This document shows, piece by piece, positions 37,511 through 43,717 of a stretch of DNA of 64,000 nucleotides. Origin of the DNA: Brucella pseudogrignonensis. GTDB taxonomy: Bacteria > Pseudomonadota > Alphaproteobacteria > Rhizobiales > Rhizobiaceae. Each line of letters starts with the position of its first letter. The stretch's first letter is position 1. The stretch covers positions 1-64,000 of the forward strand of contig NZ_NNRM01000022.1 in NCBI RefSeq assembly GCF_002252525.1, given 5' to 3'. Below the pieces are notes generated by a model that saw only the letters and a list, made by a program, of their open reading frames with translations, did no database searches and had not been told where the DNA came from. The translations under genes were made by a program, and so were the position numbers.

Positions 37511-38827
37511 ATGAGCAGTGCGGCGGCAGCAAAATCTGATGGTAAGCAGAAGGCGTCTGATAAGGCACCTTCTTCTGGCCCATTCTCAGCCTTTGAGCGG
37601 ATGATCGCATGGCGCTATCTGCGAGCGCGCCGCCGCGAAACGTTTATTTCGGTGATTGCCGGTTTCTCGTTCACCGGTATCATGCTCGGCGTCGCTACAC
37701 TCATCATCGTTATGGCGGTGATGAATGGTTTCCGCGCTGAGCTTCTGAATAGAATTCTGGGCATCAACGGACATCTCATCATGCAGCCGATAGATCGGCC
37801 ACTTGATGATTATGCCAGCCTGATTACCCGCATTGACGGCATTTCCGGTGTGAAATTTGCTATTCCTGTCGTCGAAGGACAGGCTTTGGTGCAGGGCAAT
37901 ATCGGCGCAGGCACTGGTGCTCTGGTTCGTGGTCTTCGTGAGGAAGATCTTGCCAAGCTCAAGCTCGTTTCTGACAATATCAAGCAAGGCACTTTGCAGG
38001 GCTTTGATCAGGGCGGCGGCGTGGCAATTGGCACACGTATGGCTGAAAACCTTGGCCTTTCTATTGGCGATACGCTGCGCGTTATCTCACCCGATGGCGA
38101 TGTGACGCCATTTGGCGTCAACCCGCGCGTCAAAGCCTACCCGATTGTCGCGATTTTTGAGATCGGTATGTCGGAATATGATGCGTCCATCGTCATGATG
38201 CCGCTATCGGAAGCGCAGCTTTTCTTCAATCAGGAAGGCAAAGTTCAGTCGCTGGAAATCTTTGTCGATAATCCTGATAAAGTAGACGCCATGCGCGCAC
38301 CTGTTGAGGAAGTTGCAGCGCGTCAAATCTCCATGGTCGATTGGCGTCAGCGCAACCAGACGTTCTTCTCTGCCTTGCAGGTTGAGCGTAACGTCATGTT
38401 CATGATCCTGACGCTGATCGTGCTTGTGGCCGCACTCAATATCATTTCCGGCCTTATCATGCTGGTGAAGGATAAAGGGCGCGACATTGCTATCCTTCGA
38501 ACCATGGGGGCAACGCGTGGCGCGGTCATGCGAATATTCCTGATGACGGGTGCCGCGATTGGCGTGACGGGTACGCTTGCAGGCGTGGTTCTCGGTGTCG
38601 TCGTATGTCTCAATGTAGAGCGGATTCGCCAGTTTTTCTCGTGGCTTTCGGGCACGACCCTGTTTAATCCGGAGCTTTATTTCCTGAGCACGCTGCCCGC
38701 GAAGATGGATGTTGGTGAAACATTCTCCGTTATAGCAATGGCTTTGGTCCTTTCTTTTATTGCCACCATTTTGCCGGCATGGCGCGCTGCCAAGCTCGAT
38801 CCGGTCGAAGCCCTGAGGTATGAATAA
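37511..38827 (+). CDS. lolC: Lipoprotein-releasing ABC transporter permease LolC/E type
   Basis: A protein of 438 residues, the membrane subunit that extracts lipoproteins from the inner membrane for the periplasmic carrier LolA. It has the FtsX-like layout: an N-terminal membrane helix (about residues 45-70, [20 protein letters not shown]), a large periplasmic domain, and three helices near the C-terminus from [20 protein letters not shown] onward. Only one permease gene is present, so it may act as a homodimer with LolD. Its stop overlaps the lolD start. Confidence 0.92.
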
Positions 38828-39510
38828 TGGCGGCTGAAGTCATTCTGCGTCTGGAAAATGTCAGCCGTGCCTATAAGGAAGCTGATCGCGAACTCGTTAT
38901 TCTGAAGGACGCGAACTTTACACTGCGTCGCGGAGAGATGGTGGCACTTGTTGCGCCGTCTGGCGCTGGCAAGTCGACCCTGCTGCACACGGCGGGTCTG
39001 CTTGAGCGTCCGGATGCAGGCGACGTCATTCTTGATGGCCGTTCATGTGGCGGCCTGTCGGAAGACGAGCGAACTGCTGTTCGTCGCAACGATGTCGGCT
39101 TTGTTTATCAGTTTCATCACCTGCTGCCGGAGTTCTCGGCTCTGGAAAACGTGATGATGCCACAGATGATCCGCGGCCTTCCACCGAAGGCTGCAACTGT
39201 GCGTGCGCAACAGTTGCTCGACTATATGAAGATCGGCAAACGTGCGTCGCATCGTCCTGCCGAGCTTTCTGGTGGTGAGCAGCAACGTGTTGCAATTGCG
39301 CGTGCGGTGGCTAACGCACCGCTGGTTCTGCTGGCGGATGAACCGACAGGCAACCTTGACCCGACCACGTCGTCCTACGTCTTTGGGGCGCTTGAGGCGC
39401 TCGTGCGGCAGTCGGGACTGGCAGCTCTGATCGCGACCCATAACCATGAGCTCGCTCGTCGTATGGATCGTCGCGTCACCCTTAAAGAGGGCAAGGTCGT
39501 CGATGTCTGA
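38827..39510 (+). CDS. lolD: Lipoprotein-releasing ABC transporter ATPase LolD
   Basis: The ATPase of the Lol transporter, 227 residues. The Walker A motif is [12 protein letters not shown] near residue 43, the Q-loop [19 protein letters not shown] near residue 95, the signature [14 protein letters not shown] near residue 147 and the Walker [13 protein letters not shown] near residue 167, followed by the H-loop. The Lol-specific features match. It is coupled by a 1-base overlap to lolC and closes this operon before a repeat-rich gap. Confidence 0.95.
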
Positions 39511-39532
39511 TGTCCAAAGGGAAGTTTAAAAG

Positions 39533-39674
39533 TATTTCCAGCAAAAGTGCGAAGCGCCTCTGCATGGAAATCAGTTCGTCGGACTGATTTCTTTTCCTGC
39601 TGCGATGCGTCGGATAATACATAAAGCCAAATAGTTGCAGCGGTTCCAACGTTCATTCTCAACTGGAACCGCTG
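39533..39674. repeat. Dispersed palindromic repeat, copy 2 (degenerate)
   Basis: The stretch contains the recognisable CAAAAGTGCGAAGCG and ATGCGTCGGATAAT elements of the repeat, ending in a perfect inverted repeat CAGCGGTTCCA (39638-39648) / TGGAACCGCTG (39664-39674). Part of the left hairpin is replaced by a GAAATCAGT...ACTGATTTC inverted repeat. It lies in the gap after lolD (39511-39922), in which no gene was seen. Confidence 0.5.
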
Positions 39675-39860
39675 TAAAAGCAGCTATAGATCGCATTTCC
39701 AATGGTTCAGTTTAAACCGTGGATGCTTTAGCATTCTGCGTCAGCTGTTCTCCGCATGACATCTCATATTGTTGATCATTGAACGCCGGTGGCCATGCTG
39801 CCGGCGATTGCATGTTTATTTTTCATAAACCTTAAATACATGACTGCAGCAGAACGGGTG

Positions 39861-39884
39861 TTGACTTTAGAACAAAAATGGAAC
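39861..39884 (+). promoter_or_regulatory. LexA (SOS) box in a promoter: GAAC-N7-GAAC
   Basis: GAAC at 39870-39873 and GAAC at 39881-39884 are separated by exactly 7 bases (AAAAATG). This direct repeat is the alphaproteobacterial LexA box. It overlaps the spacer of a promoter whose -35 is TTGACT at 39861-39866, so LexA would block RNA polymerase. The small membrane-peptide gene starts 38 bases downstream. Confidence 0.75.
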
Positions 39885-39922
39885 AAAAAATAAACATACG
39901 TGAACAAAGAGGAGTTATTCCA

Positions 39923-40009
39923 ATGACCGATCTCGTCTACGACGTTTTGTCTTTCGTCTCCGTCAGCCTGTTCGTTGCTACCTTTGCTATCTGGGTAAGC
40001 GTAATCTGA
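39923..40009 (+). CDS. 28-aa single-span membrane peptide, candidate SidA-like SOS division inhibitor
   Basis: A 29-codon frame from ATG at 39923, with GAGGAG ideally placed 7-12 bases upstream. The product starts MTDLVYDVLS and has one hydrophobic helix of about 20 residues to its end at WVSVI, with an acidic N-terminus. In Caulobacter crescentus SidA is a 29-residue inner-membrane peptide under LexA control that blocks division after DNA damage. Here the same three features co-occur: tiny size, one helix and a LexA box in the promoter. Sequence similarity to SidA cannot be judged from here. It lies directly upstream of dnaE and is followed by a GGGTTC/GAACCC hairpin. Confidence 0.7.
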   Translation: MTDLVYDVLSFVSVSLFVATFAIWVSVI

Positions 40010-40228
40010 AAGCGTAATGCGGGTTCTTCTGTGAACCCCGATGATAGTAGCGACCGTCACGCTGGACATCGTTGCGGTATTCCCCGAAACTGCCTAAATG
40101 GGCGATAAGAGTCGCCCGTTAGAGTGTGCAAATCCATATAGTGATTGGCACGCGGATGGCGCTGAAGGCATGATGTCGTTGTCATGATATTGCAGTGCGT
40201 TTAGCTCTGCAAAGATCGGGGAAATAGT

Positions 40229-43200
40229 ATGAATGATAAAGCAAGCATTTTAGCGGGCGGGGGCAAGTCGTCACCTCGTTTCGTTCATCTGCGAGTTCAT
40301 TCTGCTTACTCCTTGTTGGAAGGCGCGCTGCCTGTCGGCAAGATCATCAAACAGGCGATTGCCGATCAAGCACCGGCCATCGCGATAACTGACAGCAACA
40401 ACCTTTTCGGCGCTCTCGAGTTTGCACAAAAGGCGTCAAAGGATGGTTTGCAGCCAATCATAGGCTGCCAGCTGGATGTTGCTTTTGGCGATCACAACGA
40501 TAACAGCCGCAGTGCAAACCGGCGATTGGTTCTCGATCTTGCACCTCTGGTTTTCCTCGCTTCGACTGAGGAAGGTTATGCGAACGTTGTAAGGCTCGTC
40601 AGCCGTGCGTTTCTTGATACGCAATCGGGAGACCCAGTGCATGTCGATGCAAGCTGGTTATCTGATCTGTCAGAAGACGTGATTGTTCTTTCAGGCGGCC
40701 CTCTGGGGCCAATCGGACGCGCATTTGCTGCTGATCGTCCCGATCGCGCTGAAAGCCGTTTGGCCTTTTTGAAAGAAGCATTCGGTGATCGGCTTTATGT
40801 CGAGTTGCAGCGGCAGGCGGGCTATGATCGCGCGCTTGAGGCAAAGACCGTCGAGTTAGCATATGCGATGGAACTGCCGCTCGTCGCGACCAATGAAGCT
40901 TTCTTTTTGAAAGCCGAGGATTTTGAAGCGCACGACGCGCTTCTTGCCATCGCTGAAGGTCAAATTCTATCCAATGATGATCGGCGTCGTTTGACGCCGG
41001 ATCATCATTTGAAAAGCCGTTCGGAAATGGCTGCCCTGTTTGCAGACCTGCCCGAAGCGCTCGAAAACACGATTGAAATCGCCGAGCGGTGCAGCTGGTT
41101 CACGCAGACACGTCAGCCGATCCTACCGCGTTTCACCGGCGAATCTGACGATCCTGAAGCAGCCATTCAGGCGGAAGCTGACGAGCTGGCACGTCAGGCG
41201 CGTGAAGGCCTGCAGATGCGGTTGGAAACAGCAGGTCTTGCTGAAGGCTATACAGAAGAACAATATGCCGAACGTCTCGATTACGAGATCGGCATTATTA
41301 CCCGCATGAAATTCCCGGGTTACTTCCTGATCGTTGCGGACTTTATCAAATGGGCCAAACAACAGGGTATTCCTGTAGGACCGGGGCGTGGTTCTGGTGC
41401 GGGTTCGCTCGTCGCTTATGCTTTGACGATTACAGACGTTGATCCGCTGCGCTTCTCGCTTCTGTTCGAACGCTTCCTCAATCCAGATCGCGTATCGATG
41501 CCCGACTTCGATATCGACTTCTGTCAGGATCGCCGCGAAGAAGTTATTCGCTACGTTCAGGAGAAATACGGGCGCGATCAGGTCGCGCAGATCATCACCT
41601 TCGGTACTTTGCAGGCGCGTGCTGTGCTACGCGACGTGGGCCGTGTTCTCGAAATGCCATACGGTCAGGTTGATCGTCTCTGTAAGCTTGTACCGCAGAA
41701 CCCGGCCAATCCGGTGTCTCTGGCACAAGCCATCGAGACTGAGCCAAAGATCAATGAAGAGCGCGAGAAGGAGCCCGTTGTTGGCCGTCTTCTTGATATG
41801 GCGCTGAAGCTTGAAGGACTGTATCGCCACGCCTCGACCCACGCCGCCGGTATCGTCATCGGCGATCGTCCGCTTTCTGAACTCGTGCCGATGTATCGCG
41901 ATCCACGTTCCGATATGCCGGTCACTCAGTTCAATATGAAATGGGTCGAGCAAGCCGGGTTGGTCAAGTTCGACTTTCTGGGTCTGAAAACACTGACGGT
42001 TCTCGAAACAGCCGTAAAGCTCGTTGCACGCAAGGGCATCGATATAGACCTGTCGCGCCTGCCGCTCGATGATGAACTCACCTATGAAATGCTGTCGCGC
42101 GGCGAAACGGTCGGCGTGTTCCAGGTGGAAAGTGCCGGTATGCGTAAGGCGTTGCTTGGTATGCGTCCCGACCGTATCGAAGATATTATTGCGCTTGTTG
42201 CGCTTTATCGCCCTGGTCCGATGGAAAACATCCCGACCTATAATGCGCGCAAGAACGGTGAGGAGGAAATCGCCTCCATTCATCCAAAAATCGACGACCT
42301 GATCAAGGAAACGCAAGGCGTTATCGTTTATCAGGAACAGGTGATGCAGATCGCACAGGTGCTTTCCGGCTATTCGCTCGGTGAAGCTGATCTTCTGCGC
42401 CGCGCGATGGGTAAAAAAATCCGCGAAGAAATGGACAAGCAGCGTGTCCGTTTTGTTGATGGTGCGATCGAAGGTGGTGTTGATAAGGCTCAGGCGAATA
42501 TGATTTTCGACCTGTTGGCTAAGTTCGCTGACTACGGCTTCAACAAGTCGCACGCTGCCGCCTATGCGATTGTCTCCTACCAAACTGCCTATATGAAGGC
42601 GCATTATCCAGTTGAGTTTCTAGCGGCATCGATGACCTATGATATGTCGAACGCAGATAAGCTCAATGATTTCCGTCGTGATGCAAATCGTTTGGCAATC
42701 GATGTTGTGACACCTTCCGTCATGACATCGTTCCGTCCTTTCGAGGTGGGCGAGAAGAAGATTTTCTATTCTTTGGCAGCAATCAAGGGCGTGGGCGAAG
42801 CTGCCGTTGATCATATCGTCAGTGTGCGGTCCGAAAAGCCGTTTGAAAGCCTTGAGGATTTCTGTGAGCGGATCGATCCGAAAATCGTCAATCGCCGCGT
42901 AACGGAAAGCCTGATCAATGCAGGCGCACTTGATTGCTTTGGTCGCGACCGTGCTGCAATGAGCGCGGGTATGGACCGCATTATGGGCTTCGCGCAGCGC
43001 ACGCAGGAAAATGCGGCCAGCGGCCAGTCCGATATTTTTGGGCTTTCAGGCGCTCCGAAAGAAACACTGATTCTTCCGCAGGCAGCGCCATGGCTCCCTT
43101 CGGAAAAGTTGCATCGCGAGTTTCAGGCAGTTGGCTTTTATTTGTCCGCCCATCCGCTCGATGAATATCGTCAGGTCCTTGACCGGATGCGTGTGCAGAG

Positions 43201-43717
43201 CTGGGCCGATTTCTCGGCGGCGGTGAAGCGTGGTGCAAATGCAGGTCGTCTTGCCGGAACAATAACCACCAGACAGGAGCGTAAGACGCGCACAGGCAAC
43301 AAAATGGGCATTGTGCAGCTGTCGGATGCCACCGGCCAGTTTGAAGCGGTACTTTTCTCGGAAGGTCTCGCGCAGTACCGCGATCTGCTTGAAAGCGGTA
43401 AATCGGTGGTGATCACAGTTGCCGCGGAAAACCGTCCAGAAGGGATTGGCCTCAGAATTCAGACGGTGCAGTCGCTCGAGGACGAAGCCTGCCGGATGCA
43501 GAAGGCACTCCGGCTCTATCTTCGTTCAGCGGAAGCGGTGAAGCATATTGTTCCGCATTTCAACACGCGCGGCGACGGTCAGGTGAGCCTGATTGTCATT
43601 AAGGAAGAAGGTCAGCGCGAAGTCGAGATTGAGCTTCCCCATCGCTATCGTGTCAGTCCGCAAATTGCGAGCGCGATGAAGGCAATTCCAGGTGTCGTTG
43701 AAGTTGAACTGGTCTAA
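40229..43717 (+). CDS. dnaE: DNA polymerase III alpha subunit
   Basis: The replicative polymerase of 1162 residues. The N-terminal PHP domain begins FVHLRVHSAYSLLEGALP near residue 18 with the metal-type histidines partly changed, as is usual in proteobacterial DnaE. The polymerase core has GRGSGAGSLVAYAL near residue 388, catalytic aspartates D426 and D428 in MPDFDIDFCQDRREE, and RPGPMENIP near residue 662. The C-terminal part holds a helix-hairpin-helix and an OB fold near residue 1030. It has its own upstream region after the SOS peptide gene and ends in a bidirectional terminator. Confidence 0.97.
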   Translation: MNDKASILAGGGKSSPRFVHLRVHSAYSLLEGALPVGKIIKQAIADQAPAIAITDSNNLFGALEFAQKASKDGLQPIIGCQLDVAFGDHNDNSRSANRRLVLDLAPLVFLASTEEGYANVVRLVSRAFLDTQSGDPVHVDASWLSDLSEDVIVLSGGPLGPIGRAFAADRPDRAESRLAFLKEAFGDRLYVELQRQAGYDRALEAKTVELAYAMELPLVATNEAFFLKAEDFEAHDALLAIAEGQILSNDDRRRLTPDHHLKSRSEMAALFADLPEALENTIEIAERCSWFTQTRQPILPRFTGESDDPEAAIQAEADELARQAREGLQMRLETAGLAEGYTEEQYAERLDYEIGIITRMKFPGYFLIVADFIKWAKQQGIPVGPGRGSGAGSLVAYALTITDVDPLRFSLLFERFLNPDRVSMPDFDIDFCQDRREEVIRYVQEKYGRDQVAQIITFGTLQARAVLRDVGRVLEMPYGQVDRLCKLVPQNPANPVSLAQAIETEPKINEEREKEPVVGRLLDMALKLEGLYRHASTHAAGIVIGDRPLSELVPMYRDPRSDMPVTQFNMKWVEQAGLVKFDFLGLKTLTVLETAVKLVARKGIDIDLSRLPLDDELTYEMLSRGETVGVFQVESAGMRKALLGMRPDRIEDIIALVALYRPGPMENIPTYNARKNGEEEIASIHPKIDDLIKETQGVIVYQEQVMQIAQVLSGYSLGEADLLRRAMGKKIREEMDKQRVRFVDGAIEGGVDKAQANMIFDLLAKFADYGFNKSHAAAYAIVSYQTAYMKAHYPVEFLAASMTYDMSNADKLNDFRRDANRLAIDVVTPSVMTSFRPFEVGEKKIFYSLAAIKGVGEAAVDHIVSVRSEKPFESLEDFCERIDPKIVNRRVTESLINAGALDCFGRDRAAMSAGMDRIMGFAQRTQENAASGQSDIFGLSGAPKETLILPQAAPWLPSEKLHREFQAVGFYLSAHPLDEYRQVLDRMRVQSWADFSAAVKRGANAGRLAGTITTRQERKTRTGNKMGIVQLSDATGQFEAVLFSEGLAQYRDLLESGKSVVITVAAENRPEGIGLRIQTVQSLEDEACRMQKALRLYLRSAEAVKHIVPHFNTRGDGQVSLIVIKEEGQREVEIELPHRYRVSPQIASAMKAIPGVVEVELV

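Follow-up and report, generated by a model that had tools for sequence, protein, structure and literature searches.

The small protein SidA of Caulobacter is described as a 29 amino acid protein of the inner membrane whose interaction partners are FtsW and FtsN (PMC4211646), and it is placed under LexA control (PMC12700426). For its complex with FtsW, TM7 is predicted as the contact helix (PMC13396833). Its gene is listed as CCNA_02004 (PMC10769358) and the dnaE gene of the same organism as CC1926 (PMC1839093). A second Caulobacter inhibitor, DidA, is reported as a protein of 71 amino acids that is induced by DriD, is not part of the SOS response and binds FtsN (PMC4211646). Of the other inhibitors described, SulA acts on FtsZ; YneA, ChiZ and SosA are located in the membrane and carry other domains or extensions (PMC4211646, PMC13396833). 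Here we analyse a stretch of 64,000 nucleotides from Brucella pseudogrignonensis (contig NZ_NNRM01000022.1, positions 1 to 64,000, called the window) and, within it, a very short gene upstream of dnaE. Judging from its sequence and from the analogy with Caulobacter, this gene is probably the Brucella/Ochrobactrum version of a SidA-type SOS division inhibitor, which would be controlled by LexA and act at FtsW. An original prediction had described a short gene with a strong ribosome-binding site at this place. The description holds: the gene has 28 codons, is preceded by AGAGGAG and is located directly before dnaE, with a gap of 219 bp to the dnaE start codon (ATG 40229).

The peptide open reading frame (ORF) is a real gene and its residues are under selection. 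A scan of named genomes with an alignment of seven peptides (A1) returned 117 pattern matches, 58 of which were confirmed as loci. They are found in Brucella, Ochrobactrum, Falsochrobactrum, Paenochrobactrum, Pseudochrobactrum, Phyllobacterium, Paramesorhizobium, Zhengella and others. All 58 include a 28 amino acid ORF with an ATG start and an exact upstream box of the form GAAC-N7-GAAC. These loci were retrieved through the peptide, so that it is the box, and not the peptide, which constitutes the independent observation. The box lies at -52 to -54 in 56 loci and at -32 or -33 in the remaining 2; a dnaE motif is present downstream in 57 and a lolD motif upstream in 55. The peptide was also found in each of the 35 genomes of the window's genus that were searched. 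Conservation of frame and box in close relatives, one of the points on which the original prediction had asked to be judged, is therefore observed for both.

Codon analysis was carried out on the window and the 58 loci (59 sequences, 52 distinct coding sequences, 26 distinct proteins). Variable columns number 18, 8 and 26 of 28 at codon positions 1, 2 and 3 respectively. The ratio of nonsynonymous to synonymous changes (pN/pS) of the window gene is 0.10 against the 30 loci L061-L090 and 0.18 against all 58. Among those 30 loci, mean ungapped identity is 0.86 in the coding sequence and 0.83 between -65 and -1, with 0.59 between -110 and -66 and values of 0.35 and 0.40 in the outer flanks.

Some loci (L081, L345, L347, L403, L417, L418, L420, L421 and L426) carry a tandem operator, GAAC-N7-GAAC-N7-GAAC, which forms two overlapping boxes before the peptide. 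In the window, the third place of this pattern reads AAAC. One locus, L106, comes from a record titled Bacillus subtilis SK6B4 and exhibits a Pseudochrobactrum-like arrangement of peptide and dnaE; this record is mislabelled or contaminated.

Comparison with SidA relied on a reference from genome G517, which encodes a 29 amino acid peptide (L306, MIRVARESLALVSVASFVWMMCSVAQLVA) before dnaE, with a box. L306 scores 70.8 bits against the NCBIfam model NF033228 (div_inhib_SidA, cell division inhibitor SidA; cut-off 35) and was identified as SidA by this match together with its place before dnaE. The Caulobacteraceae label of family f66 derives from the DnaN chain of PDB entry 5wce, which we take to be that of Caulobacter crescentus (identity of 76-82% for f66 and 98% for G517). 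The Caulobacter genes CCNA_02004 and CC1926 are presumably neighbours. All 22 members of the Caulobacteraceae alignment (A4) match NF033228 at E values up to 10, the best being 2e-20. When A4 was compared by hhalign with A3, the alignment of the window group, the two aligned without gaps over columns 1-21 (score 28.4, E 1.1e-7 for one comparison). None of 300 permuted controls, 150 with all columns except the first shuffled and 150 with only the hydrophobic block shuffled, reached this score; their maximum was 20.6, and the reversed profile gave 7.0. The columns common to both groups are an acidic residue at 7, Ala/Ser at 10, Phe/Leu at 11, Ser at 13, Val/Ile at 14 and Phe at 17. The original prediction had noted the likeness to SidA and left identity aside. 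Kinship is now supported by the place before dnaE, the type of operator, the length of the peptide, the alignment register and the comparison of profiles: the window peptide is a homologue of SidA on these grounds, although it lies outside the family as defined by the curated model. Searches of Pfam found nothing for the window peptide, PHROGs and PADLOC nothing for the peptides, and NCBIfam nothing for the window peptide, a phage-type peptide (see below) or one A3-type peptide. No report of SidA outside Caulobacter was found in the openly licensed literature, which is no proof of absence.

The arrangement was then compared across the class. Regions before dnaE were examined for 90 of 99 genomes of the window's family, 50 of 55 Caulobacteraceae and 89 of 359 other genomes of the class; for the most part, the genomes left out matched more weakly or were less well assembled. 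The box with its N7 spacer followed by a short hydrophobic ORF occurs in 46, 29 and 17 of these regions respectively. Each of the control spacers (4, 5, 6, 8, 9 and 10) yields only 0-2 cases, and the reverse strand with spacers 6-8 yields 0-1. A profile built from both groups was run on 2,097 short ORFs from both strands and gave 104 matches at E 0.01, none of them on the strand opposite to dnaE. These matches belong to 51 of the 90 family regions, 48 of the 50 Caulobacteraceae regions and 5 of the 89 others, the first two counts being partly by construction since the profile contains members of these groups. Near these ORFs the box is exact, carries one mismatch or is absent in 43, 5 and 3 cases in the family, 28, 17 and 3 in Caulobacteraceae, and 5, 0 and 0 elsewhere. 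A box is also present in twelve more class regions that the profile does not match, and several of these hold a diverged hydrophobic short ORF. With the seven-row profile A1, 109 of 385 class genomes had a match at E ≤1; apart from G000 (9.4e-17) the best reached 2.5e-4, and no relatives outside the family were shown by this search.

Within the window's family, a match to the A3 profile at E ≤0.02 anywhere in the genome is found in 88 of 101 genomes, A3 itself including members from this set. Six of the 13 genomes without a match are no larger than 2.0 Mb (G005, G006, G044, G076, G091 and G093), which suggests that the peptide was lost in reduced genomes; G072, of 1.9 Mb, retains a match. A missing match need not mean a missing gene, as illustrated by locus L209, discussed below.

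Several observations weigh against a SidA-type assignment. NF033228 (cut-off 35 bits) does not match the window peptide or any of the 18 members of alignment A2, and of the 24 peptides in A3 it matches a single one (E 0.038). The window peptide shares 7 of 28 residues with L306, it has substitutions at Trp19 and Met20, which are frequent in the Caulobacteraceae set, and it includes neither Lys nor Arg. The few matches in the other families of the class (5 of 89 regions) point in the same direction, as does the absence of an exact box within 800 bp in 6 of 51 peptide-bearing family regions and in 19 of 48 Caulobacteraceae regions. Finally, the promoter was predicted to carry the box in the spacer between its -35 and -10 elements. 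The TTGAC element and the box are present, but a sigma-70 scan of positions 39500-40300 identified no -10 element at the peptide gene, its three sites lying elsewhere.

The proximity of dnaE raises the question of which gene the box serves. It might regulate dnaE, with the peptide ORF tuning dnaE translation as an upstream ORF. A comparative genomics study, citing Caulobacter, counts dnaE among the SOS-regulated genes of alphaproteobacteria (PMC3323433), and in Sinorhizobium meliloti Ribo-seq is reported to show translation of a small ORF, sORF25, in the 5' untranslated region of dnaE1, with an upstream-ORF role suggested for some such ORFs (PMC10117765). However, of 27 copies examined away from dnaE (7 loci from the family profile search and 20 regions), 26 retain the exact box, and in 18 a lolD motif lies no more than 1.5 kb upstream. 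The sole copy without a box, L432, begins with MRD as the phage type does. The box therefore goes with the peptide and not with dnaE, and dnaE was rejected as its target. Among the family regions, a box within 800 bp is found in 45 of 51 with the peptide before dnaE compared with 1 of 39 without a recognised peptide, and in this one (L209) there is a short hydrophobic ORF of the same kind that has diverged. In Caulobacteraceae the corresponding counts are 29 of 48 and 0 of 2. Selection on the residues of the peptide also argues against a translational device, which we consider very unlikely. Since copies away from dnaE keep their box, the closeness of the two genes seems to reflect inherited gene order and not a link in function. 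In the ancestor the genes probably stood in the order lolD - sidA - dnaE; dnaE would then have become separated in some lineages while the box remained. As a guess, sORF25 of S. meliloti may be the same gene as the box-controlled peptide.

Another possibility is an SOS peptide resembling TisB or DinQ, which would depolarise the membrane instead of binding a division protein. The size class is equal and the presumed control is of the SOS type, and DinQ and TisB are described as small toxic inner-membrane peptides (PMC3567139). Nevertheless the profile homology points to SidA, and residues 8-28 of the window peptide are uncharged. Moreover, TisB and DinQ are reported to be accompanied by antisense RNAs (PMC3567139), whereas an Rfam scan of positions 39400-40400 revealed no such family, an undescribed RNA being possible. 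A peptide of this kind appears unlikely. It is extremely improbable that a chance ORF simply lies next to a chance box, even if the box taken alone is no more frequent than expected by chance: GAAC-N7-GAAC occurs 2 times in the window for 2.13 expected, and 106 times forward and 94 times reverse in the genome, the reversed pattern giving 79 and 87. Significance of the box by itself was rejected on these counts. It is the codon-position pattern, the conserved box, the N7 spacer control and the copies away from dnaE that speak against chance. The combination of TTGAC, 1-9 nucleotides and the box has 2 sites genome-wide, the peptide locus and one other (control 0).

If the gene is a SidA-type inhibitor, its operator suggests that in the undamaged cell LexA would sit on the promoter box GAACAAAAATGGAAC and hold the gene off. 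After DNA damage, RecA-stimulated cleavage of LexA would release the promoter, as the box and the Caulobacter precedent indicate. The 28-residue peptide would then be made and enter the inner membrane as one helix, in line with its hydropathy. By analogy with SidA, it may act there on the FtsW/FtsI/FtsN complex and thereby hold back synthesis of the septal wall until repair is complete.

A second type of copy lacks the box and is associated with phages. Twenty further regions were read, mostly second copies and including some near-duplicates (L389, L390). Thirteen encode a peptide of MRD type without a box within 120 bp, L397, L399, L403 and L404 encode a host-type peptide with a box, and L395, L400 and L401 belong to neither type. 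Seven neighbouring proteins were scanned and matched exonuclease VIII (2), SSB (1), exonuclease families (2) and phage repressors (1), one giving nothing. Of 86 stretches returned by a scan of IMG/VR viral contigs, 12 were confirmed; the contigs that carry them measure 22.6-97.4 kb. These viral copies are 32-33 amino acids long and start with ATG (10) or GTG (2). None of the 12 has a box within 300 bp in either orientation, and in 9 the preceding open frame ends 4-8 bases inside the peptide start. Their neighbours include RecT-like proteins (L405, L411) and repressors (L408, L411, L412). Overall the phage-type copies (28-33 amino acids) sit in RecE/RecT early regions near SSB and repressor genes. 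L405 and L385 are both carried by contigs of 42,186 nucleotides, and the viral set and the set of 20 regions therefore overlap.

The alignment of phage-type copies (A5) compares with A3 at a score of 54.5 (E 5.6e-15) and with A4 at 20.7 (E 4.2e-5), the latter being thin since block-shuffled controls reach 20.0. A5 is thus far closer to A3 than to A4, as expected if the phages acquired the peptide from a host in this order. Profile A1 confirmed none of 61 stretches on viral contigs, and tblastn of a phage-type peptide against 50,697 phage records returned no match, which the length of the peptide and the BLAST filter may explain. We propose tentatively, with somewhat less than even confidence, that SidA is an old checkpoint peptide of at least two distant alphaproteobacterial families (in diverged form of more), missed by annotation outside Caulobacteraceae, and that in relatives of Brucella/Ochrobactrum temperate phages have taken it over, released it from LexA control and set it in their RecE/RecT early region. 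Such phages could then stop division of their host at FtsW on their own schedule.

The features of the locus are listed in Table 1. An ORF filter asked for an ATG start, 22-50 codons, a Shine-Dalgarno-like motif and, among 18 residues, 13 or more belonging to the set AILMFVW. On the plus strand of the window it retained the ORF at 39923 alone, and on the minus strand one unrelated ORF. The hydropathy of the 28 amino acid peptide (Kyte-Doolittle maximum 2.16 over 19 residues) predicts a single inner-membrane helix, in keeping with the size and single helix of SidA. A longer in-frame start, ATG 39878, was rejected. It falls within the spacer of the box, and relatives that read GAACAAAAATAGAAC lack it; 39923 is therefore the likely start. 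No terminator was found by a scan around the peptide gene. Between the peptide gene and dnaE (40000-40120) hairpins are possible, the 3' flank folding more stably than its shuffles (z -2.22). Between lolD and the peptide gene, positions 39530-39685 (+) match Rfam RF02604 (Brucella small RNA CI153) with 67.7 bits and E 3.9e-15, under the gathering score of 137.

Table 1. Features of the peptide locus in the window, and loci of the phage-type copies
Feature	Position or loci	Strand	Remarks
lolD-like ABC ATPase gene, upstream neighbour	38827..39510	+	top NCBIfam match LolD, 252.6 bits, below the model cut-off of 307.75
TTGAC, -35-like element	39861..39865	+	within 80 bp before the start in 57/58 named loci; lacking in L072
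LexA-box-type operator GAAC-N7-GAAC, GAACAAAAATGGAAC	39870..39884	+	exact upstream box in 58/58 named loci
Shine-Dalgarno region AGAGGAG	39908..39914	+	similar in relatives
Putative SidA-type single-helix peptide gene, 28 codons	39923..40009	+	ATG 39923, stop included; product MTDLVYDVLSFVSVSLFVATFAIWVSVI
dnaE, DNA polymerase III alpha, downstream neighbour	40229..43717	+	NF004226, 1521.3 bits, above the cut-off of 1002
Phage-type copies (alignment A5)	L385-L394, L396, L398, L402, L405-L416		boxless in the stretch searched

The observation on which the original prediction was based is confirmed and its interpretation is supported. The openly licensed literature yielded no description of an SOS division inhibitor for Brucella, Ochrobactrum or rhizobia, and the gene is a candidate for this role. 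A LexA box attached to dnaE in the literature would be reassigned to a different gene, and the translated small ORF of S. meliloti, perhaps identical with this gene, would gain a possible function. The curated model NF033228 falls short of the window's family. The many natural variants, including those of phages, represent a resource for locating the residues that meet FtsW.

With SulA, YneA, ChiZ and SosA, compared by description only, the proposed inhibitor would share induction by damage and an effect on division. DidA is likewise a damage-induced membrane inhibitor of division, but the window peptide has 28 amino acids and a LexA-type box, in contrast to the 71 amino acids and the DriD-dependent, non-SOS induction of DidA. 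The phage-type peptide of L385 shares 15 of 28 residues with that of the window; its type differs in starting with MRD or VKD, in a frequent C-terminal AEKV, in the lack of a box within the stretch searched and in its location in a phage early region. From SidA of Caulobacter, the window peptide is set apart by its position outside the curated model, by its limited identity to L306 and by the lack of Trp19, Met20 and any basic residue. It resembles SidA in its length (28 and 29 amino acids), its one hydrophobic stretch, its box of GAAC-N7-GAAC type, its place directly before dnaE and the ungapped register of the two profiles.
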